From Anaerococcus degeneri (GTDB taxonomy: Bacteria > Bacillota > Clostridia > Tissierellales > Peptoniphilaceae), in assembly GCF_017874475.1 (NCBI RefSeq), contig NZ_JAGGLO010000005.1, positions 1 through 64,000 of the forward strand: a DNA stretch of 64,000 nt, given 5' to 3'. Shown one piece after another: positions 12,345 through 60,082 of the stretch (the stretch's first letter is position 1; the number at the start of each line of letters is the position of its first letter). A program made the position numbers and the translations under genes. The notes beneath the pieces are model-generated. The model saw nothing but the letters and a program-made list of their open reading frames with translations, searched no databases and was not told where the DNA came from.

Positions 12345-13928
12345 TTAATCAATCCTTATTCTTTCAATATTTATTTCTATTCCAGATTTAAAGGTTATTT
12401 CAAATTTATCATCATATATTTTTATTTGCTTGATGTATTTTCTAACAAGTTCTTCATCATATTCTGTTATCTCTCTGCTTTGAATTTTGAGAAATTTCTC
12501 CATATCCTTGATGCGTCTTTTGGCATCTTCATCAAGAGCCTTTTGAACAAGCATCTTATGTTTTTCACCCTTTAGGGTATCAACTTCATTAGCAATGTCC
12601 GTATAGTCTTTCTTAGCTCTTACCTGTGCAAGGAGTTCCTTTTGTTTTACCGCAATTACTCTATTGATGGCTTCTATTTCTTCATCGTTACTTCCAGCAA
12701 CTACTTTTTCAATATTCTTTATTAGAATTTTTTCAGTATCATCAGAAGTTTTCAAAACCTCATTCATGGCTTTTACAACTGCTTTTTGTAGTTCTTCCTC
12801 TGGTATAGTAGCTGCATCACAGCTTTTTGGCCCATGCTCAACCCTTGTACAGCATCTCCATACCACCAAACGCTCTCCACGATTATTCCAAGCAACTCGC
12901 CTATAAATATCTCCGCATTTCGAGCAAATACAAAGACTAGAAAGCGCATATTTACTTGAATAGACTCGCTTTTTCTTTTTCCCTTCTCCACTAAACATAT
13001 TAGCGCGCCTTAGCATTTCTTCCTGCACCTGTATGAATATATCTCTTGGAATAATGGCTTCATGGTTATCTTTTACATAATATTGAGGCTCTGTTCCATC
13101 ATTTTTTATACGAACTTTATTGATAAAATCTGTTGTAATTGTCTTTTGAAGTAGTGCGTCACCAATGTACTTTTCATTCTCTAGAATTCCTTTTATGTTA
13201 GAAACATGCCACTTAAGATGTCCTGCTCCATTTTTTATTTTATCCCTCTGGAGTCCTGTCGCAATTTCTCTTAGACTTGATCCAGTTAGATACTCACGAT
13301 AGATTCTTTTTACAACCTTAGCCTCTTCCTCATCGATAATCAGATTGCCATCTGCATCTTTGGTATAGCCTAAAAACCAGTTTGTGTTAATCTGTACTTT
13401 TCCCTCTTGATACCTAAACTGTATACCCATCTTAACATTCTGAGATAATGAAGCTGATTCTTGCTGAGCAAGTGATGCCATAATGGTAAGAAGAAGTTCA
13501 CCGCTTGCTTCCATAGTATTTATATTTTCTTTCTCAAATATGATAGGTATGTTGCTGTCTTTTAGCTGCCTTACATACTTCAGGCAGTCTATGGTATTTC
13601 TTGCAAATCTACTGATGGATTTAGTTATGACCATATCCACCTTACCGGCCATGCAGTCATTAATCATCTCATTAAAGCCTTCACGTTTTTTGGTATTTGT
13701 GCCCGATATACCATCATCCGCATAAATTCCCACAAATTCCCAATCACTATTTCTAGAAATATAGTCCGTGTAGTGCTTCACCTGCATTTCATAACTTCCA
13801 GCTTGCTCCTCGCTATCAGTACTAACTCTACAATAAGCTACTACCTTTAACTTAGGTTTTTCTTTTTGATTACTTATCGAATTTCCCGGTCTTTTCCTAG
13901 CGGGAATAAGCATTACATTCTCATTCAA
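12345..13928 (-). CDS. Large serine recombinase 1
   Basis: A 527-residue large serine recombinase. The resolvase-type catalytic domain has the nucleophile Ser at about residue 36 (AYCRVST) and the SRFARN motif near residue 109. A recombinase domain follows (about residues 180-300), then a zinc ribbon (CICSKCG ... CCTR ... SCDAA, about 345-385) and a C-terminal coiled coil (about 400-480). Such enzymes integrate and excise phages and conjugative elements at short att cores without a tyrosine integrase. The start is a TTG at 13928 with an AGGGAGGGATAGAG site. It is the last of three co-directional recombinase genes. Confidence 0.85.
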
Positions 13929-13930
13929 CT

Positions 13931-14341
13931 CTATCCCTCCCTAATCAAACTATATACATATTCTGCCTGCTTATATGGATCATCAAATTTCAGCTCTGCT
14001 CTGCAGCACTTAAATTCTCTAACAGGCACAAACGCTTCTGAAGGACTAATTTCTTTGATTCTGTTCCTTTGAATCGTATTATTTTTTCTAGCTTCTTGAA
14101 CCTTATTAAATAGATCTTCATCTATCAATTCTGGATAAAATTCTGTTCCAAGATATACCGTATTTCTTAATATCTTTCCAATGGAACTATGTGTTTTATC
14201 TATTCCTACAGCTTTTGCTGATGCCCTCATTGAGTTACATTCAAGATATTTTTTATATAGAGCAATCACCTTCTCAGCCTCTGGTATATAGATAACACCT
14301 TTTGCATTCTCTACTCGGTATCCATATGGTATGTGTGTCAC
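13931..14341 (-). CDS. Recombinase-domain protein without catalytic domain
   Basis: A protein of about 136 residues that matches only the central recombinase domain of large serine recombinases (PYGYRVEN ... [15 protein letters not shown]). It lacks the N-terminal resolvase domain and its serine, and also the zinc ribbon. The GTG at 14341 overlaps the stop of the upstream recombinase (GTGA) and has a GAGGAGGTGG site, so translation is probably coupled. It is compact and uninterrupted, which favours a dedicated accessory or directionality subunit over a decayed fragment, though that is inference. Confidence 0.7.
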
Positions 14342-15903
14342 TTTACTACCACCTCCTCTGTTAAATTTAAGCCGCACTTCAGATGAAAGGTGAATTTAAG
14401 TCTATCTTCTATCGTGATCTTCTCAACAAATTCCGAAAAAGTATCATCAATAAAATCTTTGATACAATCACTTTTGTTTATAAATCTTAGTAGTTTTTGA
14501 GCTTCATTTAGATGATTTAGATCTCCACTAACGATTGATGAAACACTTGCTTTTTCCTTTTCAAGGTCATCAAGCTCCAGGGAAATATTATTGTTTTCTG
14601 CATAAAATACATCTAGCTCTATATAACCACTACTTAATAGCTTTGTTAGTACCTGAGCTTGTTCATTCAGCTTTTCTATTTTTTTATCAAGTTCTAAAAT
14701 ATGCCTTAGCCGATCCTTGTTATTGCCACCTCGCAAAGTGTCTACAAAAGGCTTCAGCATAGTATTTTTGCCTGCTATAAGCTTATTCATCATTTGAACA
14801 TATGCTGCTTTGATATGTTCTTCTCTTATATACTTCATGTTGCAGCTTTTCTTATCTTCAATATGCCTAACGCAGGTCCAAGCAGCATAGTCTCCACTTT
14901 GTGCATATCTCATGCACCTTTTTACTTTTGAACCACATTCACCGCAATATACCTTTCCGGAAAGAGCGTATCTTTTTTGATATTTGTTATCTGAACCATC
15001 TATATTTTTTTCTTTTCTTCTCTGACCTACTACAGTTTTTACCAGTTCAAAATCCTCATGGCTAATAATAGGTTCGTGGTGATTTTTCATCATATATCTG
15101 ACCTTTTCTCCACGATTTTGATGTCTGTTAAAATTCTCGTCTGTATAGGTTTTTTGAAAGATAACATCTCCTGTATATTTTTCATTCTTTAAAATAGCTT
15201 GAACTGTTGAAGAGTGCCATTTAATGTTTTTCTTTGTAGCTATGCCTCTTTTGTTTAGTTCATTCGCTATTAGATATGATCCCAATCCTGATATTGCCAT
15301 TCTAAAAATTTCCTTCACAATCTCAGCTTCACTTGGAACAACAACCATCTTTCCATCAACATTTTCATAGCCGTAGGGTGGATAGGAAATAACATAAGTC
15401 CCATTTTCAAACCTTCTTTTTAACGACCATTTGCTATTTTCCGAAATAGATCTTGATTCGCTTTCTGCAATAGAACTTAGAATTGAAAGCATAAGTTCTG
15501 AGCTCATATGCTCAGTATCTATATTTTCCTTTTCAAAATAGATGGCTACTCCAAGTCCTGTAAGTTTTCTTACCATTTCAAGGCAGTCCACTGTATTTCT
15601 TGCAAATCTACTGATAGATTTTGTGATAACCCTATCAATTTTTCCTTTTTCACAATCATCAAGTAATTTCAGCAGGCTCTCCCTTTTTTCTATTTTTGTT
15701 CCACTGATACCTTCATCAAAATATAGCCCTGCGTATTCCCAGTAAGAATTTGCCTTTATGTAATTTTCATAGTGTTCTTTTTGAACTTCAAGACTAAGGA
15801 GTTGTTCTGCACTTTCTGTTGAAACTCTAGCATAGGCTGCTACTCGCATTTTCTTAACTCTGTTATTTTGCTGTCTTTTCTCTATTTTTGTTATCTTTGC
15901 CAT
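14338..15903 (-). CDS. Large serine recombinase 2
   Basis: A 521-residue large serine recombinase. The catalytic Ser is at about residue 28 (AYARVST), with SRFARN near residue 101. The recombinase domain covers about 170-300, the zinc-ribbon cysteines (CGECG ... CVRH ... SCNM) lie near 335-380, and a coiled coil follows to about 470. I chose ATG 15903, directly after an AAGGAGGTGAGACG site, rather than a longer reading from 16035. It is clearly diverged from recombinase 1, so the pair is not a recent duplication and may act as a heteromeric integrase. Confidence 0.85.
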   Translation of the reverse strand: MAKITKIEKRQQNNRVKKMRVAAYARVSTESAEQLLSLEVQKEHYENYIKANSYWEYAGLYFDEGISGTKIEKRESLLKLLDDCEKGKIDRVITKSISRFARNTVDCLEMVRKLTGLGVAIYFEKENIDTEHMSSELMLSILSSIAESESRSISENSKWSLKRRFENGTYVISYPPYGYENVDGKMVVVPSEAEIVKEIFRMAISGLGSYLIANELNKRGIATKKNIKWHSSTVQAILKNEKYTGDVIFQKTYTDENFNRHQNRGEKVRYMMKNHHEPIISHEDFELVKTVVGQRRKEKNIDGSDNKYQKRYALSGKVYCGECGSKVKRCMRYAQSGDYAAWTCVRHIEDKKSCNMKYIREEHIKAAYVQMMNKLIAGKNTMLKPFVDTLRGGNNKDRLRHILELDKKIEKLNEQAQVLTKLLSSGYIELDVFYAENNNISLELDDLEKEKASVSSIVSGDLNHLNEAQKLLRFINKSDCIKDFIDDTFSEFVEKITIEDRLKFTFHLKCGLNLTEEVVVK

Positions 15904-15964
15904 CGTCTCACCTCCTTTTTGGTCAGTACTATATATCACTCTAAAGACATTATTTATCAAGTTA

Positions 15965-16177
15965 TTAATCCAGTATTTCCTCATAAAACGGCTCAAAATT
16001 GAGCTTATTAAGCTCGCTAATCTGCACCGCTTCATCTTCTGAAATTAATCCATTATCTACTAGCCTCTTTGTCAGCATTTGTGCCACTTCATATTCAAAG
16101 TCCTTTTGCATTTTTTCTTCTGTGAAAGATCTAGCCTCTGTTTCTATGGAGATTTGAGCACCTTTAATTATCTGCAT
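15965..16177 (-). CDS. Small SHOCT-like protein upstream of the recombinases
   Basis: A 70-residue charged protein beginning MQIIKGAQIS. Its C-terminal part (LVDNGLISEDEAVQI) resembles the short 'SHOCT'-type helical hairpin found in small proteins next to recombinase genes. The ATG at 16177 follows GGAGGTGAGCAAA; it overlaps the upstream gene by 14 bases. The position suggests a role in regulating or assisting recombination, but no function is established. Confidence 0.55.
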   Translation of the reverse strand: MQIIKGAQISIETEARSFTEEKMQKDFEYEVAQMLTKRLVDNGLISEDEAVQISELNKLNFEPFYEEILD

Positions 16178-26665: not shown

Positions 26666-28009
26666 TTAGATTATAAAATTTTTTAAACTCTTATTCACAC
26701 TAATAGCAAAAGGAATTGTGATGATTGTTGTTATTAAATCTGAAATTGTTTGAGCATATATAACACCATTTAATCCCATAAGTTTAGGCAACAATAAAAT
26801 GATAGGGATAAACACAATTCCTTGTCGCAATGAATTTAGAAATACTCCCCCTAATGCCTTTCCTGTAGACAAATACAAGGTAGAGTAAGTAAACTGAAAT
26901 CCAAATGTTATAAACATAATTACAGCTGCTCGTAATGCCGGCACTGCTATATTTAATACATTTTCATCAGTCCCAAATATAGATAATATACTTGGGGCAA
27001 ATATATAAACTATCACAGTCCACACTACACAAAATACATTTGTCCATTTAACACTTGCCTTTATAGCTTCTCTCACTCTTTCATAATTCTTAGCTCCATA
27101 ATTAAATCCAGCTAATGGTTGTAATCCTTTCATATATCCAAATACAACATTTGTTCCTAATGTTACAATTCTAAGAACAATACCCATTGCAGCTATTGCT
27201 TCTTCTCCATAAAAGGACGCTGCATAAGATATTTTGCTGATGGATATTGTTTGTAGAATTTGAAGTATTAACATGGATATACCTATCTTTAATATATCCT
27301 TGTAAATTGCAACTGTAGGTTTAAAGTTAGGTAACTTTATCTCAATTAAATTTTTATCTCCTACAAAGTAAATGAGATACATTAGACTGGTTATAACTCT
27401 GGCTATGAGTGTCGCAATCGCTGCACCTCTCACTCCTAAATTAAGTCCGAATATAAATATCGGATCTAAAATCATATTTGATATAGAGCCTACAATCATA
27501 GCCTTTAAGGAAATTTTAGCAGCTCCTTGTGCAACGGCTAAATTTCCAAGTGTTACATTTACCGTTCCCAAAATACCGCCTACTATGAATATTCCTGTAT
27601 ACGACTTGGAAATTTCAATAATAGATGGTATGGCTCCCATAAATTTCAAAACGCCATCTAAATAGCAAAACAATGCAATAGCTGTAACTATCCCTAAAAT
27701 TGCACTTGTTAGTAGAGCAACTGTCGCTACAATACTTGCTTCTTTTTTATCATTTCCTCCAAGTAGCCTTGATATATAAGAGCCTGCTCCGGCACCAAAT
27801 GTTAATCCTATCCCTAAAAAAATAAGTTGAATCGGAAAGGCAACAGAAACGGCAGCTACTGCCTCTTTTCCAAGTCCGGACACAAAATAGGTGTCCACAA
27901 CATTGTATAAGGCAGCTACCAACAAACTGATAACCATAGGTATACCTAACTTAAAAAGTGCCTTATCAATATTTTCTTCTTTCAAAATTTTTATTCTGCT
28001 TTCGTTCAT
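26666..28009 (-). CDS. MATE family efflux transporter carried as prophage cargo
   Basis: A 447-residue MATE transporter with about 12 spans. The N-terminal half has 'LGIPMVISLLVAALYNVVDTYFVS' (residues 22-45, quoted without its ends) and the C-terminal half 'MKGLQPLAGFNYGAK' near residue 285. It differs clearly from the MATE at 3645. It does not belong to the tail module in which it sits, between the tail chaperone and tape measure genes, and it has its own leader and terminator. Such unlinked genes in phages (morons) often serve the lysogen; drug or metabolite efflux is likely, substrate unknown. Confidence 0.88.
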   Translation of the reverse strand: MNESRIKILKEENIDKALFKLGIPMVISLLVAALYNVVDTYFVSGLGKEAVAAVSVAFPIQLIFLGIGLTFGAGAGSYISRLLGGNDKKEASIVATVALLTSAILGIVTAIALFCYLDGVLKFMGAIPSIIEISKSYTGIFIVGGILGTVNVTLGNLAVAQGAAKISLKAMIVGSISNMILDPIFIFGLNLGVRGAAIATLIARVITSLMYLIYFVGDKNLIEIKLPNFKPTVAIYKDILKIGISMLILQILQTISISKISYAASFYGEEAIAAMGIVLRIVTLGTNVVFGYMKGLQPLAGFNYGAKNYERVREAIKASVKWTNVFCVVWTVIVYIFAPSILSIFGTDENVLNIAVPALRAAVIMFITFGFQFTYSTLYLSTGKALGGVFLNSLRQGIVFIPIILLLPKLMGLNGVIYAQTISDLITTIITIPFAISVNKSLKNFII

Positions 28010-37827: not shown

Positions 37828-39420
37828 TTACTTAAAATAAAAGTGCTTAATTCCTGCAAGTACAAAACATACATTAGGAAGTGCCACGCCATTTCCCCAC
37901 ATCTTATATTCAGCTGAATCTGTATGAGGACTAGCAAGCCACTTTCTTATCTGTTTTTCACTTCTAGGCTTAGTAGCTTTCGTCACAACTTTCCTATAGG
38001 TTTCAAAGACTTCAGTCCAAAATATCAATTCTCCCTCTGTGGGATTGATAGTTTCTAAATCATCACACCAACCATCTGGGAAACCTTGAAGTCTTCCGCA
38101 TTCCTTTGGAGTTAGTCTTCTAACAATATATCTTTGACCCGCCACGTCATTTACAACAGGTGGATCTTTATAGTCACTTGCAACTAAAGTATTAGCTAGA
38201 TTTTCTACCGCCTCAGTATGATGGGAGTTTTTGCTGGTTGAATAGATTTCCTTTTCAACGATGAGTTTGCCTTGACCTGCCATCTCACTATGAACACCCT
38301 TTGGCCCATCCATCGCACAAAGTGTACCTGCTGTTTTGTCACAGTAGACAATGGCAAGTCCGCCTTGATTGGCTTCCGGTGAGTTTTGACCCGTGTTAAT
38401 GGTTCTTGCCACATCAGTTTCATAAACATTAGCTCTATGATTTTTGGTGTTTTCTGATGTAATACGGACATCAAAGGTTCTGGTACTATCCTCAACTACA
38501 AAAGGCTGGTTGTTTCCACCAGTTCCAAGGCTTGCTCCTATAGTATTACTCACAGCAAGAGGTCCTTTAAATCTAGAGTCCTGTCCATGATTTTCAAATA
38601 CCAATGGTGGATGATTCCCTACGCTTGCGGTGATTGTTCCACTCTTATTTTTATGAACATCCATCCTCTGACCCCCTTGGTCATTTAAGCATAGATTTGT
38701 GACTGAACTTCTAATGCTACCTTTAGAACCTGTGGCAGTTCTTTGCCACGGGCTTTTGCTCTTTTCAAGATGCCAAGGCATGCCCTCGGACTCAAATAAT
38801 ATTTTTCCGGCACTTCTTCCATTAAAATCGCAGACAAGATAGATGCGTCTTCTTCTTTGGGGAACTCCCCAGTACTGAGCATCAAATACCCTCCATGCGA
38901 GTGAGAAATCTTCTGCCATGATAAGACCTGCGTTTTGCCATTTCTTAGGTCTAGCCTCATCAATTTTATGTCCTTTGATCCCACAGATTTCTTTGAGGAC
39001 TGAAAAGAAGTCCTCTCCTTTGTTTGAGGAGAATGCACCTGGCACATTTTCCCAAACGATATATCTTGGTTTTTCTCCATGCGTTTCCTCCCTCATTTCT
39101 TTAATAATTCTAATTGCCTCATAAAATAAATTAGAGCGAGAACCACTTAGCCCCGCTCTTTTACCTGCTATAGACATATCTTGGCATGGGCTGCCAAAAG
39201 TGATAATGTCCACAGGTTCTATTTCATTTCCTTTAATACCAGATATATCTCCTAAATGTTTTACATCCGGCATTCTTCTAGTTGTTACTCTAATTGGAAA
39301 AGGCTCAATTTCTGAACAACTAATAGGCTTTATACCTACAAGTTTTGCTCCTAAACAAAATCCTCCTGAACCATCAAATAGAGAACAAAGTGTTAGAGGT
39401 TTATTTTGTTTTTTCTCCAT
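37828..39420 (-). CDS. Phage DNA cytosine-C5 methyltransferase, multi-repeat type
   Basis: A 530-residue C5-MTase. Motif I 'SLFDGSGGFCLG' is at about residue 13, motif IV 'GSPCQDMS' has catalytic Cys79, the ENV motif lies near 123, 'QRRRRIYLV' near 190, and the C-terminal 'WGNGVALPNV' near 512. Between VIII and IX lies a long target-recognition region (about 230-425) with five degenerate repeats such as SGTITASVG, NTIGASLG, ARTINTG, GTLCAMDG and NTLVASDY. It probably methylates phage DNA against host restriction. It overlaps the next MTase by 20 bases. Confidence 0.88.
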   Translation of the reverse strand: MEKKQNKPLTLCSLFDGSGGFCLGAKLVGIKPISCSEIEPFPIRVTTRRMPDVKHLGDISGIKGNEIEPVDIITFGSPCQDMSIAGKRAGLSGSRSNLFYEAIRIIKEMREETHGEKPRYIVWENVPGAFSSNKGEDFFSVLKEICGIKGHKIDEARPKKWQNAGLIMAEDFSLAWRVFDAQYWGVPQRRRRIYLVCDFNGRSAGKILFESEGMPWHLEKSKSPWQRTATGSKGSIRSSVTNLCLNDQGGQRMDVHKNKSGTITASVGNHPPLVFENHGQDSRFKGPLAVSNTIGASLGTGGNNQPFVVEDSTRTFDVRITSENTKNHRANVYETDVARTINTGQNSPEANQGGLAIVYCDKTAGTLCAMDGPKGVHSEMAGQGKLIVEKEIYSTSKNSHHTEAVENLANTLVASDYKDPPVVNDVAGQRYIVRRLTPKECGRLQGFPDGWCDDLETINPTEGELIFWTEVFETYRKVVTKATKPRSEKQIRKWLASPHTDSAEYKMWGNGVALPNVCFVLAGIKHFYFK

Positions 39421-40663
39421 GTGTTTCCACCTCTTTCACTAAATCTTTATATGATAATTTCTTACCACCACGAATCACATAGACATTTTCATTATCCCCG
39501 GTATCTTCCACATATCGTCTTAAAATAACTGATGCATACTTTTCATCAAGTTCCATCGTATGACAGATTCGATTTGTCTTTTCACAAGCAATTAAGGTTG
39601 AACCACTACCTCCAAAGGTATCAATGACGATGGCATTTTCTTGACTTGAGTTTTGAATCGGATAGGAAAGTAAATCTAGTGGCTTTGATGTCGGATGATT
39701 TTCATTTCTCTTTGGTTTATCAAAGTTCCAAATAGTTGTTTGTTTTCTATCGGAATACCATGAATGCCTACCATTTTTAAGAAAGCCATAAAGCACAGGT
39801 TCATGTTGCCACTGATAATCACTTCTACCAAGAACAAGTGAGTTCTTTACCCATATACAACAGCCTGCAAGATGAAATCCTGCATCAATAAAGGCTTTTC
39901 TAAAATTAAGTCCTTCCGTATCAGCGTGAAATATATAGGCTGCTCCACCACTTTCCAAATGCTCTGCCATATTTTGAAAGGATAGAAGAAGGAAATTATA
40001 AAACTCTTCCTCTTTCATCGAATCGTTTTTTATCGTAAGTCCACTGGCACTTTTAAATGAGACCCCATAAGGGGGATCGGTAATAATGAGATTGGCTTTT
40101 TTACCACCCATCAAAGTATCTACATCTTCCTTACTTGTTGCATCACCACACATCAGACTGTGTTTGCCAACATTCCAGATATCGCCTTTTTCTACAAAGG
40201 CAGCTTTTTCAAGTGCTGATGTCAAGTCAAATTTATCATCTTCCACCGTTTCCTTTTCAGAATTTCCAAATAACTCATCAAGTTCTGCTCCATCAAAGCC
40301 CGTTAGAGCTAAATCAAAATCCATTCCTTCTAATTCTTCAATCTCAATTCGGAGTAGTTCCTCATCCCAGCCAGCATCCAGTGCCATTTTGTTGTCAGCT
40401 ATGATATATGCTTTCTTCTGTGCCTCAGATAGATAGTCTACAAGTACACATGGCACTTCTTCCATCTTTTCTTCCTTAGCTGCCATAACTCTTCCGTGAC
40501 CTGCGATGATATTAAACTTTGAATCGATGATGACCGGATTGATAAAACCAAATTCTCGTAAAGAGGATCTAAGTTTCATAATCTGCTCTGGGGAGTGAGT
40601 TCTTGCATTATTCACATAAGGGACTAGTTTACTAATTTCCACCATTTCCATTTTTGTTTTCAT
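39401..40663 (-). CDS. ParB-fused adenine/N4-cytosine DNA methyltransferase
   Basis: A 420-residue protein with an N-terminal ParB-like nuclease-type domain (residues 8-95, with 'NPVIIDSKFNIIAGHGR') and a C-terminal beta-class N6/N4 MTase. The catalytic DPPYG is at 196-200, and the SAM site 'DTFGGSGSTLIACE' lies near 352. Such phage enzymes modify phage DNA; specificity is unknown. ATG 40663 has a GGTGAGCTT site. Neighbours are another MTase and an S-adenosylmethionine synthetase. Confidence 0.88.
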   Translation of the reverse strand: MKTKMEMVEISKLVPYVNNARTHSPEQIMKLRSSLREFGFINPVIIDSKFNIIAGHGRVMAAKEEKMEEVPCVLVDYLSEAQKKAYIIADNKMALDAGWDEELLRIEIEELEGMDFDLALTGFDGAELDELFGNSEKETVEDDKFDLTSALEKAAFVEKGDIWNVGKHSLMCGDATSKEDVDTLMGGKKANLIITDPPYGVSFKSASGLTIKNDSMKEEEFYNFLLLSFQNMAEHLESGGAAYIFHADTEGLNFRKAFIDAGFHLAGCCIWVKNSLVLGRSDYQWQHEPVLYGFLKNGRHSWYSDRKQTTIWNFDKPKRNENHPTSKPLDLLSYPIQNSSQENAIVIDTFGGSGSTLIACEKTNRICHTMELDEKYASVILRRYVEDTGDNENVYVIRGGKKLSYKDLVKEVETHGEKTK

Positions 40664-40675
40664 AAGCTCACCCCA

Positions 40676-41458
40676 TTAAAAAAGACCCCATTCAGCGAAC
40701 TTTTCAAATCCACCAATAGAGTCTATATACTTTCTTGCGATATTCACGATTTCGCTATACGGCTTACCATCAACTACTTCATCACCAATGGCACAGCTAA
40801 GTTCAATCGGTCTTTGTTCCACCTGTGCTTTAAGAAAAGCGTAGATATTTACTGATATATCTGCTTTGGATAAGTCTTTACCATGAAGACCGCCGCCTGT
40901 AACTGAATCAGCCATGTCCGATCCAAGTTTACGGTTTGTTGCTCCTGTATCTACATCAGTTCCACCAGTCCAAAAGCCTAGAGGATTAATAATAGCAGAC
41001 TGATATTTACCTTTTAATTCTTCATTATTCGCATGGCTTTGGCAGATGATTAGCTTCTTATCATCAAGGATATATTTTCCATCATAGGGATAAGTTCCAT
41101 AGATTTCTCTTGCAATTTTACTTAAAGCCTTATCTTCATCTGTTAATGGCATACCTTTAAAGATACCATTATCACCACATCGGATAGTTTCTTCTTGGTT
41201 TTTAGATAGGTGTTTATCTTGTCTTGCAATGACAATATCTTTTTTAACCTTTCCAGCAATACGAGCTATTGCCTCTTTAATTTCCTTATACTTAAAATTC
41301 ACCGTGCTTTCTATAATCACATGGCACACACCATGACCGATTAAGACTTCTACGGCAACTTTAGGATTATCACAATTTTTATATGCGATATCAACTATAG
41401 CACCTGCTATTCTATCTGCAATTTTATCTGGGTGTTTTGGATTTACTTTTTCTATCAT
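40676..41458 (-). CDS. Short phage S-adenosylmethionine synthetase
   Basis: A 260-residue homologue of methionine adenosyltransferase, which makes SAM from methionine and ATP. Cellular enzymes have about 390 residues. Conserved landmarks remain: HPDK near residue 10, CGDNGIFKG near 93, 'GGTDVDTGATNRKLGSD' near 165 and GGGLHGKD near 188. The central domain is shortened. Sitting between two methyltransferases and TerS, it would supply the methyl donor for phage DNA modification, if active. Confidence 0.82.
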   Translation of the reverse strand: MIEKVNPKHPDKIADRIAGAIVDIAYKNCDNPKVAVEVLIGHGVCHVIIESTVNFKYKEIKEAIARIAGKVKKDIVIARQDKHLSKNQEETIRCGDNGIFKGMPLTDEDKALSKIAREIYGTYPYDGKYILDDKKLIICQSHANNEELKGKYQSAIINPLGFWTGGTDVDTGATNRKLGSDMADSVTGGGLHGKDLSKADISVNIYAFLKAQVEQRPIELSCAIGDEVVDGKPYSEIVNIARKYIDSIGGFEKFAEWGLF

Positions 41459-54349: not shown

Positions 54350-54693
54350 TTGAAATCCCTCCGTTTTCTTGGAATGAAGGAATTTCTAGAAATCAGCTAA
54401 AATAAGGCACAATAAAAAGACCACAAGCTTTTCTGAAGTTTCCTTCATTCATTACTTGCAGCTCGCCTTATTCGGTTAGTGAGCTGAACTATTTAGTTTT
54501 TCCATGCTTGTTCCGAATAAACCCATAGCTAGTAGGTCAACAAACATGAATTTTTTCTTGAAGTGATAACACTTCTTAAAGCAAACCATCCATCCTTTTT
54601 GCGAACGGTAGGTTTGACCAAAGATATATTCGCGTGATATAATATGTGTAAATAACACAGTTTTTCTTTGATGATTACATTTTACAAAATCGC
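54350..54693. other. Intergenic region between the phage early operon and the defence locus
   Basis: I see no convincing gene. There is an inverted repeat CAGCTC/GAGCTG (about 54459-54486) around GCCTTATTCGGTTAGT, and a 60-codon minus frame at 54476-54658 that lacks a ribosome site. The region should hold the leftward early promoter for 54349 and part of the rightward promoter of the ABC-3C operon. Confidence 0.5.
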
Positions 54694-54746
54694 TACTTTG
54701 AACTGGTTCTTGTTAGGTTCAAAGTAGTTCAAAGAGGTTCAAAATA
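54694..54746 (+). promoter_or_regulatory. Iteron operator of the ABC-3C operon
   Basis: TACTTTGAAC (54694-54703) is the exact reverse complement of GTTCAAAGTA (54717-54726). Two more copies, GTTCAAAGAG and GTTCAAAATA, follow directly at 54727-54746, giving a 10-bp period. The array ends just before AAAAGGAGGTGG, the ribosome site of the first gene. One inverted and three direct half-sites suit cooperative repressor binding. Confidence 0.7.
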
Positions 54747-54767
54747 AAAAGGAGGTGGTTACAATAT

Positions 54768-55895
54768 ATGGAGTTTAAAAATTTTTATTCACTGCTTTTT
54801 AATAGAATCAGCGATACATTAACCTCCGGAGAATTTGTTCGTGACTTAATTGCGATGATTACATCCGTACCGGAAAATGAATGGGGATTAAAAAAAGACC
54901 CTTCAAACAGGGTCAGTTTAAAGACATATGAAAATTTTGCTAAAAGAGGTATTAACAAAACTACTTGTAAAGCAATTGTATACAGACTTACCCCTGATAA
55001 TTTCATTGATAGTTTACATACAAGACCAGAGGCAACTCTAGAACTGTTGGCGGACGATTTACACCCATATAATGCGGCTGCTACAAGGGAAAATGTTGCA
55101 GAACTACTAGCAGATATATTTGTAAATATTATTAGAACTACGGCAGGATTAACTTCTCCAGATATTCTTGAACAACAAAAGCAAATACAATCATCACTAG
55201 ATTTGAAGACAAAATACGGAAAATACTTGCTTCAAGAATGTAATAGCCATTGTCCAATGTGTGGTAGGCTGCTATTCGTTTCAGACTCTTCAAAAATTAA
55301 TGATGTCTATGAAGTAAGTAAAATAAATAAAAGTAAACAATCAACTATAGACAACACAGTTGCACTATGTCCTACTTGCTTTGCTACCTATCAAATGGAC
55401 ACCGGCACAAAAATGACTAGAGAACTAGTTAAAATAAAAAAAGCCCTTTCTAATCGTATGGAAAGCATGATTGAACTTGATGCTATACAACTAGAAAAGG
55501 GACTAACAAATGTAATTACAAAACTAAAAAAACTTAAAGAAAAAGATTTCTCTGCTCTAACAATGGATCCAAAAGAAATAGTGGAGAAAATAGATAAATC
55601 CAAGGATTTTCACTTGTACTTTCAGGTTAATAATTATGTAATGACCTACTTTGTAACAATTCGTGAAATTTTAAAAAATCTTGATAAAAGACAAGAAATA
55701 GACTATGAAGATTTGCAGCATCAAATAAGGGCAGCATATAAAAAGCTAAAGAAAACAAAAAAATCCGATATCGAGATCTTTACAAGTCTATCTGAAAGAA
55801 TACATAAAGTAACAATGCAAGAAGAAATATTTTGCCAAGCCATTGTTTGCTACTTTATTCAAAGCTGTGAGGTGTTTGATGCAATTACCAAATAA
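54768..55895 (+). CDS. ABC-three-component (ABC-3C) system protein, C-terminal component
   Basis: A 375-residue protein of the ABC-3C CTD type, first gene of a three-gene conflict-system operon (with a middle component and an ABC ATPase). The N-terminal 150 residues are helical (SGEFVRDLIAMITSVPENEW). A zinc-ribbon/HNH-like module follows at about 159-218 (CPMCG ... CPTC), but the histidines expected of an active HNH are not visible (VSKIN, CFATYQ). The C-terminal half is a long helical region that should contact the other components. Start ATG is supported by AAAAGGAGGTGG. The gene overlaps the next by 17 bases. Confidence 0.75.
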   Translation: MEFKNFYSLLFNRISDTLTSGEFVRDLIAMITSVPENEWGLKKDPSNRVSLKTYENFAKRGINKTTCKAIVYRLTPDNFIDSLHTRPEATLELLADDLHPYNAAATRENVAELLADIFVNIIRTTAGLTSPDILEQQKQIQSSLDLKTKYGKYLLQECNSHCPMCGRLLFVSDSSKINDVYEVSKINKSKQSTIDNTVALCPTCFATYQMDTGTKMTRELVKIKKALSNRMESMIELDAIQLEKGLTNVITKLKKLKEKDFSALTMDPKEIVEKIDKSKDFHLYFQVNNYVMTYFVTIREILKNLDKRQEIDYEDLQHQIRAAYKKLKKTKKSDIEIFTSLSERIHKVTMQEEIFCQAIVCYFIQSCEVFDAITK

Positions 55896-56103
55896 ATTAT
55901 ATTCATATCAAAAAAGCACCCTAGCTTTAATTCCTAGAATGCTTAGAGAAATTAAGAATGGCAATGTCAATGTTGTAGATATTTATCATGCGATTAGTCA
56001 AAATTTAGATGACCCTACAGATTTTTTGTCTGTTATGGATTGCCTATATGCTTTAAATGCAATTGAAATGACCGATGAAGGCGAGGTGAAATTATGCTTG
56101 TAG
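55879..56103 (+). CDS. ABC-3C middle component
   Basis: A 74-residue protein starting MQLPNKLYSYQKST, the typical opening of ABC-3C middle components, with a winged-helix-like remainder (DIYHAISQNLDD ... DCLYALNAIE). It is thought to bridge the ATPase and the effector. The ATG at 55879 follows GTGAGGTGTTTG. It overlaps both neighbours (17 and 10 bases), a sign of strict stoichiometric coupling. Confidence 0.75.
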   Translation: MQLPNKLYSYQKSTLALIPRMLREIKNGNVNVVDIYHAISQNLDDPTDFLSVMDCLYALNAIEMTDEGEVKLCL

Positions 56104-57755
56104 AGATATATTCTCCAGTTTTCATGGAGAATAATGAGATTAGAAAACCAATCAAACTAAAAGAAGGACTAAATGTAATCCAAGGTGCAACAAAAGGGTC
56201 TAATTCTATTGGTAAGTCATCTGCGTTACTGGCTATTGATTTTGTTTTTGGTGGAGATACTTACTTAAATAGTGATGGTGTAAAAAATATTGGAAACCAC
56301 ACAATCTATTCATGTTTCAAATTTGATAAAAAATATTATTTTGGAAGAAGTACCTTAGATCCAGATACCATCATCCTTTGTAATCCCGATTATTCAGAAA
56401 CCGAAAATACAAAAACAAAGAAAGAATTCCTTGACTTTTTATTGGAAAAATATATCAGCAATAAAACTGATCTTTCTTTTAGGCAACTAGTAAGTACCTA
56501 CTTCCGAATTGCTGGAAAACACAATAACGAAGCGAACTATCCTTTGCAAGGATATAGAAACCAAAGTACAAAAGAATCTATCAAAATATTAATGAGTCTT
56601 CTTGATTACTTTAAAGATATAGAGCCGTTCCACGCTAGGTATGATTTAGAAACAGATAAGTTGAAAACATTTAAAAATGCCAGAAAATATAGCTTTATAT
56701 CTAATCTAGTGGGTGGAAAGACTAAATTTGAAGAAAATATCAAAACCATCAATGAATTAAAGGCTGAATTAGAATCCCTTACAGATACAACCAGCGAAGG
56801 TATTACTCAAGAAGAAATTGAACAATCTAAGCATTGCGAGAACCTAAAATCCCAAAAACTATACTTTGAAACGCAGTTAGAAAGATACCAAAGAAGAAAC
56901 AAGCTGCTTAGCATTAGCATGGAGTATGGTCTTATGCCTACTGAAGCAGACATACAAAGCTTAACTGAATTTTTCCCAGAAGCAAATGTTAAGAAAATCT
57001 TTGAAATAGAAAATTACCATAAAAAACTATCTTCCATATTGAGTTGTGAATTTAGTAAAGAAAAAGAAATTCTAGAACAGACAATCACAGAATTGAAAAC
57101 TAACATTGAAAATATTAGTTTAGAACTTTCCAACCATAAAGTTAAGAACCAATTTTCAAAGGAGTTTCTAGATAAACACTCTTCTCTCCAAAGGCAAATT
57201 CAAGCTCTTGAGGAACAAAATGAAGCCTTTAAAGAAGAAAAATCTTTATCCGACTTAAAGAGTGATGCAAAAAACAAGCTAGAAACAAATGTAGCAAGTC
57301 TACTAACTGATATTACATTTAAACTTAATCAACAAATGTACGAGTTCAATGAAACTTTATATGTGGAAAAAAGAAATTCTCCAAAAATTTCATTAAAGAA
57401 TTATAACAGCTACGAATTCTTTACACCACAAGATACAGGAACAGGTACAAACTTTAAAGGTCTGATTTTATTTGATCTTGCAATGTTATACCTTTCTTCC
57501 CTTCCAGCATTAGCACATGATTCTTTGCTTTTCAAGAATATTGATGATGAAGGTGTAGATGGAATAATGAGAATTTATGATAAAGTCCATCAGATTAATA
57601 AACAAGTATTCATAGCTTTCGATAAACAAAGTTCTTATAGCGATGAAACTTATGAAATATTGCAAAATAATCGAGTGCTTCAATTAGCAAGCAACGGACA
57701 CGAACTATATGGTAAGTCTTGGAATAGAGAGGTGAAAAATGAAACTAAGTTATAA
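56094..57755 (+). CDS. ABC-3C ATPase (DUF2326, SMC/Rad50-like)
   Basis: A 553-residue ABC ATPase with coiled-coil insert. Walker A is 'GATKGSNSIGKSSALLAI' (residues 32-49, written in part). Coiled coil covers about 205-420. The C-terminal DUF2326 half has 'TGTGTNFKGLILFDLAML' near residue 455 and 'LPALAHDSLLFKNIDDEG' near 478, as the signature/Walker B region. It likely senses invader DNA or nucleoprotein and licenses the effector. It overlaps the XRE gene by 17 bases, tying the ABC-3C operon to the restriction genes downstream. Confidence 0.8.
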   Translation: MLVEIYSPVFMENNEIRKPIKLKEGLNVIQGATKGSNSIGKSSALLAIDFVFGGDTYLNSDGVKNIGNHTIYSCFKFDKKYYFGRSTLDPDTIILCNPDYSETENTKTKKEFLDFLLEKYISNKTDLSFRQLVSTYFRIAGKHNNEANYPLQGYRNQSTKESIKILMSLLDYFKDIEPFHARYDLETDKLKTFKNARKYSFISNLVGGKTKFEENIKTINELKAELESLTDTTSEGITQEEIEQSKHCENLKSQKLYFETQLERYQRRNKLLSISMEYGLMPTEADIQSLTEFFPEANVKKIFEIENYHKKLSSILSCEFSKEKEILEQTITELKTNIENISLELSNHKVKNQFSKEFLDKHSSLQRQIQALEEQNEAFKEEKSLSDLKSDAKNKLETNVASLLTDITFKLNQQMYEFNETLYVEKRNSPKISLKNYNSYEFFTPQDTGTGTNFKGLILFDLAMLYLSSLPALAHDSLLFKNIDDEGVDGIMRIYDKVHQINKQVFIAFDKQSSYSDETYEILQNNRVLQLASNGHELYGKSWNREVKNETKL

Positions 57756-57948
57756 CAAACTATGGAAACTACTAATCGATAAAGGCTTAACTAAAACCAA
57801 GCTACGTGAAATGGCTGGAATCAGCTCTTCATCAATGGCCAAGTTAACCAACTGTGGAAATGTCACTACCGAAGTTTTAATTAAAATATGCAGTGTTTTA
57901 GACTGTGACATAAGCGACATTACTGAAATTGTGAAGGAGGAAAAATAA
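57739..57948 (+). CDS. Small XRE-family regulator (possible restriction controller)
   Basis: A 69-residue Cro/CI-type helix-turn-helix protein: 'YNKLWKLLIDKGLTKTKLRE' and 'AGISSSSMAKLTNCGNVTTE', then 'LIKICSVLDCDISDI'. Such one-domain regulators are typical next to C5-MTase-based restriction systems, where they delay nuclease expression. The gene starts inside the ATPase gene and precedes the HNH nuclease. It may bind the GTTCAAA iterons at 54694-54746; that is inference. Confidence 0.8.
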   Translation: MKLSYNKLWKLLIDKGLTKTKLREMAGISSSSMAKLTNCGNVTTEVLIKICSVLDCDISDITEIVKEEK

Positions 57949-58026
57949 ATGAGCCAAAATATTTTTGAAAGGAGTAAAAAAAGAAATGGTAAAGATCGAA
58001 GATATTATCGAAATCAGAAAAGCTAA
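57949..58026 (+). CDS. Possible short leader frame before the HNH nuclease
   Basis: An ATG with the best ribosome site of this junction (GAAGGAGGAAAAATAA) opens a 25-residue basic peptide, MSQNIFERSKKRNG and on, ending at 58026. It overlaps the nuclease start in another frame. It could limit nuclease translation or be chance; evidence is only the ribosome site. Confidence 0.3.
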   Translation: MSQNIFERSKKRNGKDRRYYRNQKS

Positions 58027-58714
58027 ATTGCATGAACGTGGATATGAAATTGTCTTCCCAAACAACAAAATCATTTGGCTTACAAAAAGAAGAACCATTG
58101 CAGGTCTCCTTTTATTAATTAAATACCAAACGTGTTCTGAAGAGGATTTGGTTGGGGCAAACGATAGACTTGTAGCTATCAAAACAATTTTGAAAGGCAA
58201 ATATGAAAATAGCTGGATTAAAGACAGATATGGAGATGCCAATAAGCCGTTTAGCGAATTATGGACTGAGGAAGGCTTTTCTTGCGTTCATGCTGAAGGG
58301 TTGCAAGGGAATCGAAAATATGTTCTAAATGTTGATGATCACGAATCGTTATTTAATGAAAATGCAAAATCTGTAAGAACTCAGTTAAGTACTACGGATA
58401 AAACTACTATTCTTGACAGACAAGGCGGTGTTTGTAATATATGTGGATCTAAGCTTAAAAATAGTAGCAACATTCCGACTCACACATTTGCAAAAGATAG
58501 AGTAACATTAGAATTTGACCACAGAATTCCTATAGACCGTGGGGGAGAGAATTCCATAGATAACTATCAAGCTTTGTGCCATTATTGTAACAAGTGTAAA
58601 AGGCAAATGTGTTTTATCTGCAAAGAACAATGTGACTCAACATGTGCTTTAGTAAATCCTGAAGACTCAATAATAGTCAAAGCAACTGGTGAAGATATAT
58701 CTGATAGACTATAA
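57986..58714 (+). CDS. HNH restriction endonuclease
   Basis: A 242-residue nuclease, starting MVKIEDIIEIRK at ATG 57986 (a TTG seven codons upstream is the alternative). The C-terminal HNH module has 'CNICGSKL' (near residue 151), 'LEFDHRIPIDRGGENSIDN' with the catalytic D-H, then 'QALCHYCNKCKRQMC' and extra zinc cysteines. The N-terminal 130 residues should recognise DNA. Paired with the convergent C5 methyltransferase, it forms a probable type II restriction-modification system; the cut site is unknown. Confidence 0.8.
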   Translation: MVKIEDIIEIRKAKLHERGYEIVFPNNKIIWLTKRRTIAGLLLLIKYQTCSEEDLVGANDRLVAIKTILKGKYENSWIKDRYGDANKPFSELWTEEGFSCVHAEGLQGNRKYVLNVDDHESLFNENAKSVRTQLSTTDKTTILDRQGGVCNICGSKLKNSSNIPTHTFAKDRVTLEFDHRIPIDRGGENSIDNYQALCHYCNKCKRQMCFICKEQCDSTCALVNPEDSIIVKATGEDISDRL

Positions 58715-58716
58715 CA

Positions 58717-58756
58717 AAGAGAGCAATTGATATTATAATTTATCAATTGCTCTCTT
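58717..58756. terminator. Bidirectional terminator with 16-bp perfect stem
   Basis: AAGAGAGCAATTGATA (58717-58732) and its exact complement (58741-58756) enclose the loop TTATAATT. It serves the convergent nuclease and methyltransferase genes and overlaps the last codons of the methyltransferase. A-rich and T-rich flanks suit both directions. Confidence 0.85.
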
Positions 58757-59743
58757 AATATCATCGCAAATTGATTCAATTACAGGTGGGCATACAGCGT
58801 TAGCAAGTTGCTTTATTGCATCCGTTCTTGATACAGCAGTTAAATCAAAGCTTTCAGGGAAACCCATTATTCTCCTCATTTCAATCAAATTTAAGTGTCT
58901 TCTTTCCTTTGATAAAACTGGTATCATTGCCCCACCACCAGAATTGCTTACAGCAAATGTTGGGAAAGGTGCATCTAAAGAATATGCCCTAATTCCACTA
59001 GATCTTATTTGGAATATACAGTCATTAATGTTGCAATTTGATGACACTCTTTCTAATTTTTTTCTAGTTTTAGGCAAAGTAAATGGGATATCAGATTCTT
59101 CCTTTTTCTCCGTATATAAATCAATATATTCCTCCCATCTTTTGCTTATTGGAATTGAGTAATCACCTAGATTTAAAAAATTTCGCAATGGCGTTTTTTC
59201 TGTTAATTTTTCTGTAAATTCAAATTTGATATTTGAATATCTATCATTTGAGAATGCGACTATATATATTCTTGGTCTGCTCTGTGGTACTCCAAAATAT
59301 GTGCTATCAATTATCTTGTCATACACATTATATCCGGCATCATTCAATTGTTTTTTTATCTCTTTAAAAGTATTTCCTTTATCGTGATTTTTTAAATTAG
59401 GTACATTTTCAAAAAATACAATATCAGGTCTTTTACATCTAATTATTTCCATGAGTTTGAAAAAAATCGTACCTCGAGGATCCTTAAAACCATCTCCTCT
59501 TCCAGCTTGAGAAAAAGGCTGACATGGAAATCCTGCACATATCATGTCAAAGTCAGGTAAATTTTCTTCATTCAAGTTAAATATATCTTTTGAATTAAAT
59601 TTTTCGTTGAAATTTTTATAGTATGTTAATTCACAACGATTATCTATTTCGTTAGAATAAACTGGCATACTTTCCATTTTAGAATTAGATATACCTATTC
59701 TAAACCCTCCTATACCAGTACAAAACTCTGCGTACTTTATCAA
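58733..59743 (-). CDS. DNA cytosine-C5 methyltransferase of the restriction system
   Basis: A 336-residue C5-MTase with all main motifs: I 'FCTGIGGFRIG', IV 'GFPCQPFSQAG' (Cys74 is the nucleophile), VI ENV (112-114), VIII 'QSRPRIYIVAF', and X 'QLANAVCPPVIE'. The target-recognition region lies at about 190-270. The start is a TTG at 59743 with GGAGGTGATAGA. It probably protects host DNA from the HNH nuclease; it is much shorter than, and not close to, the phage C5-MTase at 37828. Confidence 0.9.
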   Translation of the reverse strand: MIKYAEFCTGIGGFRIGISNSKMESMPVYSNEIDNRCELTYYKNFNEKFNSKDIFNLNEENLPDFDMICAGFPCQPFSQAGRGDGFKDPRGTIFFKLMEIIRCKRPDIVFFENVPNLKNHDKGNTFKEIKKQLNDAGYNVYDKIIDSTYFGVPQSRPRIYIVAFSNDRYSNIKFEFTEKLTEKTPLRNFLNLGDYSIPISKRWEEYIDLYTEKKEESDIPFTLPKTRKKLERVSSNCNINDCIFQIRSSGIRAYSLDAPFPTFAVSNSGGGAMIPVLSKERRHLNLIEMRRIMGFPESFDLTAVSRTDAIKQLANAVCPPVIESICDDIKRAIDKL

Positions 59744-59793: not shown

Positions 59794-60000
59794 CTAGTAT
59801 TCTAATATATCTATTCCTGTTTTTATAAGGCGATCATATCTTTCCTTAGAAATTAATACTGCCTTTGGTTTTCCATTTTTTAATATAAAAGCAGCCTCAT
59901 CATTGTCCGATAATTTAGTTATAATTTTAGAAGACTGTCCCTTTAAAAAATCAGACATATTATAAAAATCCATTGTTGTCTTACTATCTTTTTCTTTCAT
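59794..60000 (-). CDS. Phd/YefM-family antitoxin-like protein, no toxin partner
   Basis: A 68-residue Phd/YefM-type protein. The N-terminal DNA-binding half is followed by 'AAFILKNGKPKAVLISKERYD', shown in part, the standard Phd core. ATG 60000 has GAAAGGAGCAAGAT. A toxin gene would be expected directly downstream, but 59743-59793 is intergenic and the next gene is the methyltransferase. It is an orphan or a remnant at the edge of the element. Confidence 0.75.
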   Translation of the reverse strand: MKEKDSKTTMDFYNMSDFLKGQSSKIITKLSDNDEAAFILKNGKPKAVLISKERYDRLIKTGIDILEY

Positions 60001-60082
60001 ATCTTGCTCCTTTCGTATTAAAGATTTTACCATAAAATCACTCTTTTATAAACTTAAATTGTAATTACTTTTATAATTATAT

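Follow-up and report, generated by a model that had tools for sequence, protein, structure and literature searches.

Lamassu and related ABC-three-component (ABC-3C) systems (LmuA-LmuB-LmuC, DdmABC) consist of an ATPase resembling structural maintenance of chromosomes (SMC) proteins, a small middle component and a protein with an ABC-3C C-terminal domain (CTD). The ABC-3C name reportedly goes back to Krishnan et al. in 2020. A locus with these three structural features, i.e. the ATPase, the middle component and an LmuA-like CTD protein, is present in the first 64,000 nucleotides of contig NZ_JAGGLO010000005.1 of Anaerococcus degeneri, the stretch that was analyzed and that is referred to here as the window. 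Unlike the known systems, this head contains a constant fourth gene for an XRE regulator and a leader with tandem repeats, a degenerate HNH domain replaces a recognizable effector, and an exchangeable immune operon (here termed the tail) is located behind it. The tail of the window encodes an HNH endonuclease and a C5 cytosine methylase and is, by family models, alike to type II restriction-modification (RM) systems, from which it differs in its placement behind an ABC-3C/XRE head. Parts of this arrangement have precedents. A type I RM island is preceded by three direct repeats to which the repressor RptR binds, according to excerpts of the report (PMC12255303). The locus described here likewise presents a small putative repressor and three short direct repeats in front of a restriction operon, with binding predicted, but its regulator is an HTH_26 protein accompanied by an ABC-3C ATPase and is found with many kinds of tails. 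CapK and CapS form a DNA-damage-sensing pair that is located upstream of diverse immune operons and regulates them (excerpts of PMC13373217), which provides a precedent for sensor-regulator logic, while BrxR, which occurs with diverse systems (PMC9122601), provides one for a regulator with varied partners. Both CapK+CapS and BrxR/CapW share with the present locus the use of one regulatory module with unrelated immune operons; here, in contrast, no kinase, STAS or WYL protein is present and the would-be sensor is a Rad50/LmuB-like ATPase. Finally, unrelated immune systems, including Lamassu, have acquired nuclease-protease pairs (PMC12799240), a further case of modular unit sharing. There the effector pair is the shared unit, whereas the present loci have the sensor/regulator head in common and differ in their effectors. 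A four-gene head with exchangeable tails was not recognized in any description found by a literature search, which did not extend to the original ABC-3C classification or to two Lamassu structure papers.

The comparison of related loci suggests a composite immune operon in which a fixed, XRE-controlled, Lamassu-like sensor head is combined with an exchangeable immune tail. Taken as a whole, we give this reading an even chance of being correct. Its functional side is proposed from a genomic pattern that comprises gene order, constancy of the head, exchange of the tails, 10-bp repeats in the leader and loss of the HNH histidines in XRE loci. If true, SMC-like DNA-structure sensors and modification-based restriction, which are usually studied apart, would be joined in one modular operon. 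This would also be a possible answer to how restriction systems stay quiet after entering a new host and are then expressed on demand.

The head and its border with the tail

Six genes are present where a previous reading of the window, made from the sequence alone, had placed them, with overlaps of 17, 10 and 17 bp calculated from the coordinates. The locus contains the following features:

54614-54643, plus strand: TTGACC-18-TATAAT, a promoter-like site whose -10 element is preceded by TG, 11 of 12 positions matched
54705-54743: candidate operator, GTTCAAA three times at exact 10-bp steps (54717, 54727 and 54737) plus a degenerate copy at 54705, just 5' of the ribosome-binding site
54768-55895, plus strand: CTD11 protein, LmuA-like (PF20277, 7e-38; PADLOC LmuA, 8e-9 over residues 1-145)
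55879-56103, plus strand: middle component MC7, LmuC-like, between the two larger genes (PF20292, 5e-28)
56094-57755, plus strand: DUF2326 SMC/Rad50-like ATPase, LmuB-like (PF10088, 3e-17; PADLOC LmuB, 4e-10)
57739-57948, plus strand: HTH_26/XRE regulator, fourth gene of the cassette (PF13443, 1e-17)
57986-58714, plus strand: HNH type II restriction endonuclease, exchangeable tail (PF01844, 7e-10; PADLOC REase_II PDLC03431, 7e-90)
58717-58732 and 58741-58756: 16-bp arms of a perfect inverted repeat, loop of 8 bases, where the HNH and C5 genes converge
58733-59743, minus strand: C5 cytosine methyltransferase, convergent exchangeable tail (PF00145, 1e-73; HhaI methylase family, 7e-50)

The HNH gene probably starts at the ATG at 57986, which follows AAAGGAG, rather than at the TTG at 57965.

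Viral and genome contigs, phage records and 398 sampled genomes of the phylum were searched for relatives of the ATPase; 15 of the sampled genomes gave a match (two of them weak). One locus was retained per ATPase cluster at 90% identity. The XRE gene is located directly 3' of the ATPase gene in 68 of 94 clusters, ending approximately 190-310 bp beyond the ATPase stop codon in most loci. In 14 more distant loci (L009, L139, L141-L151 and L154), it lies approximately 3.1-3.3 kb before the ATPase end, i.e. before the CTD gene. Because the XRE gene accompanies the ABC-3C genes in both arrangements, it is assigned by gene order to the ABC-3C cassette (CTD11, MC7, DUF2326 ATPase and HTH_26) and not to the restriction unit. 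The control consisted of 11 other DUF2326 loci of the phylum sample, one of which (G159) is also weakly matched by profile A1; an XRE or RM label within six genes was found in none of the 10 that gave a gene call, with three loci (L197, L202 and L204) offering little or no downstream sequence.

Tails are exchanged at the XRE stop codon while the head stays in place. The ATPases of the window and L003/L092 are 97.8% identical, and the DNA, which comprises prophage and head, is 96% identical over a stretch that begins 5.6 kb before the ATPase end and extends 196 bp beyond it. For L003, the XRE stop codon is located 193 bp after the ATPase end and homology to the window ends 3 bp past this stop codon, with none beyond. 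Among 55 locus pairs with ATPases that are 80-99.8% identical, homology ends no more than 72 bp before or 37 bp after the XRE stop codon in 34, which are not 34 independent events since pairs share loci; in 20 others it continues for at least 864 bp past the stop codon, and one pair was not scorable. Separate break cases are window/L003, L013/L091, L120/L160, L016/L017, L043/L108, L006/L094 and L061/L065.

These break points bear on the role of the XRE protein. The sequence-only reading had grouped XRE, HNH and C5 methylase genes as a restriction unit in which XRE acts as the controller (C) protein and the modification state gates both the unit and the ABC-3C part. A small XRE gene directly before a nuclease gene is indeed the layout of controller-protein systems. 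The controller role was rejected here because the XRE gene sits on the ABC-3C side of the break points: it is retained when the restriction genes are replaced, and it follows the ATPase gene also in front of BREX, type I and type III tails. It is likewise absent beside the HNH-C5 pair of L218, which shows 75% identity to that of the window and occurs without XRE or ABC-3C genes among 13 listed open reading frames (ORFs). We consider the account of a modification-gated controller very improbable, and no observation made here favors gating by the modification state in particular.

Judged by gene content, the HNH nuclease and the C5 methylase form a unit separate from the cassette, with L218 as the one case of its occurrence without cassette or XRE. 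The tail presents the features of type II RM, i.e. a match to a restriction endonuclease (REase) family and a DNA methyltransferase gene beside it. The HNH nuclease of the window found no match in phage records; elsewhere, one partial plasmid match and one viral contig were obtained, and the 398 genomes yielded short weak matches only, apart from its own genome. Searches by sequence at an E-value of 0.01 found no solved relatives of the HNH nuclease or of the ATPase profile. The HNH gene was also considered as the effector of the ABC-3C genes, which is not favored because the HNH-C5 pair exists without the head in L218 and most other heads carry different tails. The hairpin between the two convergent genes (58717-58756) has a folding energy of -24.5 kcal/mol (z -6.8), which was equaled in 0/200 shuffles. 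It had been described as a bidirectional terminator; the perfect 16-bp inverted repeat is present, and terminator status is likely but not certain, because the hairpin has no long T run and is not among the results of a terminator scan.

Diversity of the tails

Tails were surveyed in 61 non-redundant XRE loci with at least 2.5 kb of downstream sequence, with the five nearest genes that encode at least 110 aa considered in each. Using 12 labeling hidden Markov models (HMMs; C5, Mod, HsdM/S/R, two Res families, DrmD, BrxA/B/C and PglX), at least one RM, bacteriophage exclusion (BREX) or DrmD gene was found in 40 of these loci. Annotation of single proteins with PADLOC, partly by cluster membership, adds six (L031, L115, L133, L058, L020 and L044) to give 46/61, and four further loci with other defense genes (Druantia in L038, HEC-01 in L028, a Mza-like gene in L036 and UvrD-PDDEXK in L046) raise the number to 50/61. 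Across the relatives, RM tails of types I and III and of several type II families occur alongside BREX, DrmD-methylase sets and Druantia. Type II tails differ in the PADLOC family of their REase, with PDLC03431 in the window, 03481 in L003, 03532 in L011, 03476 in L053, 03438 in L120, 03452 in L016 and L022, and 03530 in L121. Parsimony on an ATPase tree of 60 loci with 46 classified rows indicates at least 22 changes of tail class, with a shuffled mean of 28.1; for this tree, classes were assigned by hand, L155 was left out and 14 rows were unclassified. Behind XRE in its 68 clusters, the nearest gene encoding at least 110 aa points the same way in 61 and the opposite way in six, and the gap in the co-directional cases has a median of 24 bp and is at most 100 bp in 50.

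The ABC-3C genes and the restriction system had been proposed to form a single co-directional chain, and this linkage recurs: because 46/61 XRE loci have an RM, BREX or methylase gene, it is not the case that such triplets almost always occur without restriction genes. The recurring element is the head, joined to a different tail. The exact combination of ABC-3C head, XRE, HNH and C5 is rare and was present, among the loci compared, only in the window and in L010 (Anaerococcus vaginalis PH9), which has an ATPase 100% identical to that of the window.

Two slot proteins located beside a convergent C5 methylase, L004:9907-10998 (363 aa) and L021:10830-11693 (287 aa), have no PADLOC or Pfam match and are candidates for undescribed restriction enzymes. 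The slot behind XRE could therefore be a place to seek such enzymes. In a Streptococcus phage record (L006:7959-13635), the slot contains truncated transporter genes, an IS6 transposase and the resistance genes optrA and fexA, and can therefore also take non-defense genes.

CTD11, the leader and possible modes of action

The model of CTD11 (pLDDT, i.e. predicted local distance difference test, of 87.8) contains a helical N-terminal part, an HNH-like zinc domain and the ABC-3C CTD. The latter (residues 247-375) matches solved LmuA with VIA-align Z-scores of 6.0 (9uxi) and 5.2 (9hr5), and the HNH-like domain matches Cap5 (Z 9.3) and EcoKMcrA (Z 7.7). The structure set consists of 78 of the 91 chosen CTD proteins, with phage-record loci among those left out, and set A6 comprises 43 hand-picked loci. 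Of 91 sequences, 91, 89, 91 and 87 retain the first to fourth zinc cysteine, respectively, whereas only eight have the histidine at the catalytic place (185). Alignment to Cap5 and McrA reveals V, S or K in place of their histidine, and both histidines are lost in the window. Among non-redundant loci, both HNH histidines are kept in 0/65 with XRE downstream (five unparsed), in 0/9 with XRE upstream and in 6/19 without XRE; the eight matches to the first histidine pattern among XRE loci were mostly false when the segments were read, and a histidine is at the site only in L112 and L133. The six intact proteins come from L075, L078, L083, L166 and two plasmid loci (L219, Shewanella; L220, Xanthomonas); at 252-270 aa they are short, and they have no helical N-terminal part. 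In a second set, 67 of 72 loci were parsed, of which 34 lie on contigs not seen before and 28 remained after removal of near-copies. Three of these 28 non-redundant loci have an intact site (L222, L223 and L281; 259-260 aa), all of them without an XRE or RM label in approximately 7 kb, and the 17 XRE loci of this set show an intact site in 0/7 readable cases, with 10 unreadable by the pattern. Since the intact forms fall in few lineages, the association of histidine loss with XRE presence is best read as a correlation and not as a count of independent events. The short triplets L219, L220, L222, L223 and L281, found on Shewanella and Xanthomonas plasmids and on viral contigs, combine an intact HNH protein (252-260 aa) with the absence of XRE and are likely stand-alone nuclease systems.

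In the ATPase, the Walker A residues G40-K41-S42 are conserved in 158 aligned sequences. The place of Walker B is occupied by His475-Asp476-Ser477, with His and Asp in 158/158 and Ser in 146/158 sequences; for LmuB, a Glu-to-Gln change at this motif is given in excerpts of a review (PMC10586767).

The match of the CTD to LmuA is also consistent with an ordinary Lamassu-type suicide system that is co-expressed with restriction as a second line of defense. Here, the LmuB-like ATPase would detect ends resulting from cuts or stalled phage DNA, and the N-terminal part of CTD11 would poison the cell. Excerpts of the same review propose that Lamassu senses DNA ends or hairpins (PMC10586767), and DNA is the target of most tails. 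Against such a function, the HNH site has no catalytic histidine in most XRE loci, and in the N-terminal part of CTD11 only F3, A67, L94 and N109 are well conserved. No confident match emerged from a fold search with residues 1-153 (best Foldseek E 0.73, myoglobin-like noise), an outcome that neither excludes an effector nor indicates a new fold. Additionally, BREX tails are not known to cut DNA, according to excerpts of PMC9122589. The suicide reading still stands because the helical N-terminal part of CTD11 is uncharacterised, and we regard it as a tentative alternative.

Because the complex keeps the ATPase, the zinc fold and the regulator but not the nuclease site, it might instead be a Lamassu-derived transcriptional switch. 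In this account, an ABC-3C complex without its own nuclease effector would use its ATPase to sense phage-related DNA structures and would lift the XRE repression of an interchangeable immune operon, so that a single head could activate type I, II or III RM, BREX, Druantia or other tails. Such a switch is a speculative proposal that we consider possible but doubtful. The least assuming account is that the head is an autoregulated Lamassu-like complex and the tail any of many immune systems.

The leader contains the elements on which regulation could act. The sequence 5' of the first gene was examined in 78 non-redundant loci for sets of three 7-mers spaced 10-12 bp apart; in 54 loci, such a set agrees at five or more of seven positions, compared to 1.9 loci expected from base shuffles of the same stretches. 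The spelling of the repeat varies by locus and is constant within each locus (GGTTCA, GGTACA, GGTGCA, GGTTAA, CCTCAA, GGGACA and GATAC). An alignment of 26 hand-picked leaders shows a TATAAT-like block, a ATTATACAAAATGG-like block and the repeats in kept order. Because a promoter scan gave no overall excess (22 found vs 27.7 in shuffles), the case for the promoter-like site at 54614-54643 is founded on the conserved TATAAT-like block of this alignment. Directly upstream of the leader, a DUF2800 RNA (RF02960) was detected on the minus strand at 54390-54550, scoring 69 bits vs a gathering score of 60.2. In two scans for known RNA families in the operon leader, this RNA, on the opposite strand and upstream, was the only one found; the remaining matches of the first scan were weak, of miRNA or lncRNA type, below gathering and mostly on the hairpin.

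In the composite operon, the head genes and the first gene or genes of the tail would be transcribed together from the promoter at 54614-54643. By analogy with RptR, XRE is predicted to bind the three leader repeats and would hold the operon low. The ATPase complex would then recognize DNA of abnormal structure, namely the ends, hairpins or forks that have been proposed for Lamassu, and this would relieve XRE repression or otherwise license the tail. The convergent methylase would have its own promoter, so that modification could precede restriction. The sensing step is the weakest link of this scheme.

Several points weigh against the composite operon. No downstream XRE was detected in 26 of the 94 clusters; some of these have XRE upstream, others offer little sequence, and in others XRE is truly absent. 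In L012, XRE appears to have been deleted. Relative to the best promoter, the repeats are on the downstream side, within the leader, and the recognition helix of XRE is nearly constant while the repeat spelling varies (GGTTCA, GGTACA, GGTGCA). Covariation between helix and repeat was examined by eye and was not convincing at the level of single residues; given the nearly constant helix, it would be at best by clade. BREX and type I systems often have their own regulators, and the helical N-terminal part of CTD11 could be the true effector. Furthermore, 11 of the 61 surveyed XRE loci have no identified defense gene (L082, L018, L019, L089, L107, L109, L061, L076, L064, L125 and L140); the slot of L107 holds a pilin gene, and L061, L064 and L076 share a pattern of a DUF4238 gene and a serine recombinase. 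Together with the resistance cargo of L006, such slots would fit a mere defense-island neighborhood, in which mobile elements carry the head as a stable anchor with a recombination hotspot behind it and no functional coupling. This account is at odds with the one-sided distribution of methylase HMM matches within 2.5 kb, found downstream in 33/91 clusters and upstream in 0/89. Matches to any of the 12 HMMs occur in 53/91 clusters downstream vs 5/89 upstream (the latter with a DrmD label). Both comparisons favor the downstream side as the models were built from downstream proteins. Pfam is free of this bias: the first downstream gene of 80 loci belongs, among the 25 of 60 families listed, to N6_N4_Mtase in 13, HsdM_N in seven, and N6_Mtase, BrxA, DNA_methylase and ResIII in six each, whereas none of the 23 families of the first upstream gene in 75 loci is a DNA methylase or restriction family, the commonest being Sigma70_r4_2 (16). 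The co-directional, tightly spaced tails also argue for more than shared location, as do the homology break at the XRE stop codon and the conservation of the operator-like leader, and we judge a neighborhood without coupling unlikely.

Prophage setting and neighboring genes

The host is a human-associated bacterium whose prophage carries the locus, and its genome contains a single copy of the ATPase gene. By ORF reading, the window includes a prophage-like stretch with portal, protease, capsid, tail, replication and recombinase genes. The ABC-3C genes are on the plus strand directly beyond the replication-side genes of the prophage, followed further on by rlmD-like and pyruvate-kinase-like host genes. 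Several other genes, named by reading, were observed on the minus strand. The left part of the prophage-like stretch contains three consecutive serine-recombinase ORFs (12345-16035; 527, 148 and 565 aa), and a MATE-type transporter ORF lies amid the tail genes (26666-28009). Inside the prophage, 37828-41458 encodes another C5 methylase of 530 aa, an adenine methylase of 420 aa that is ParB-like and, in an ORF of 260 aa, a protein resembling methionine adenosyltransferase, which together possibly represent the phage's own DNA-modification set. Finally, a Phd/YefM antitoxin-like ORF (59794-60033, minus strand; PF02604, 6e-8) adjoins the C5 methylase gene.

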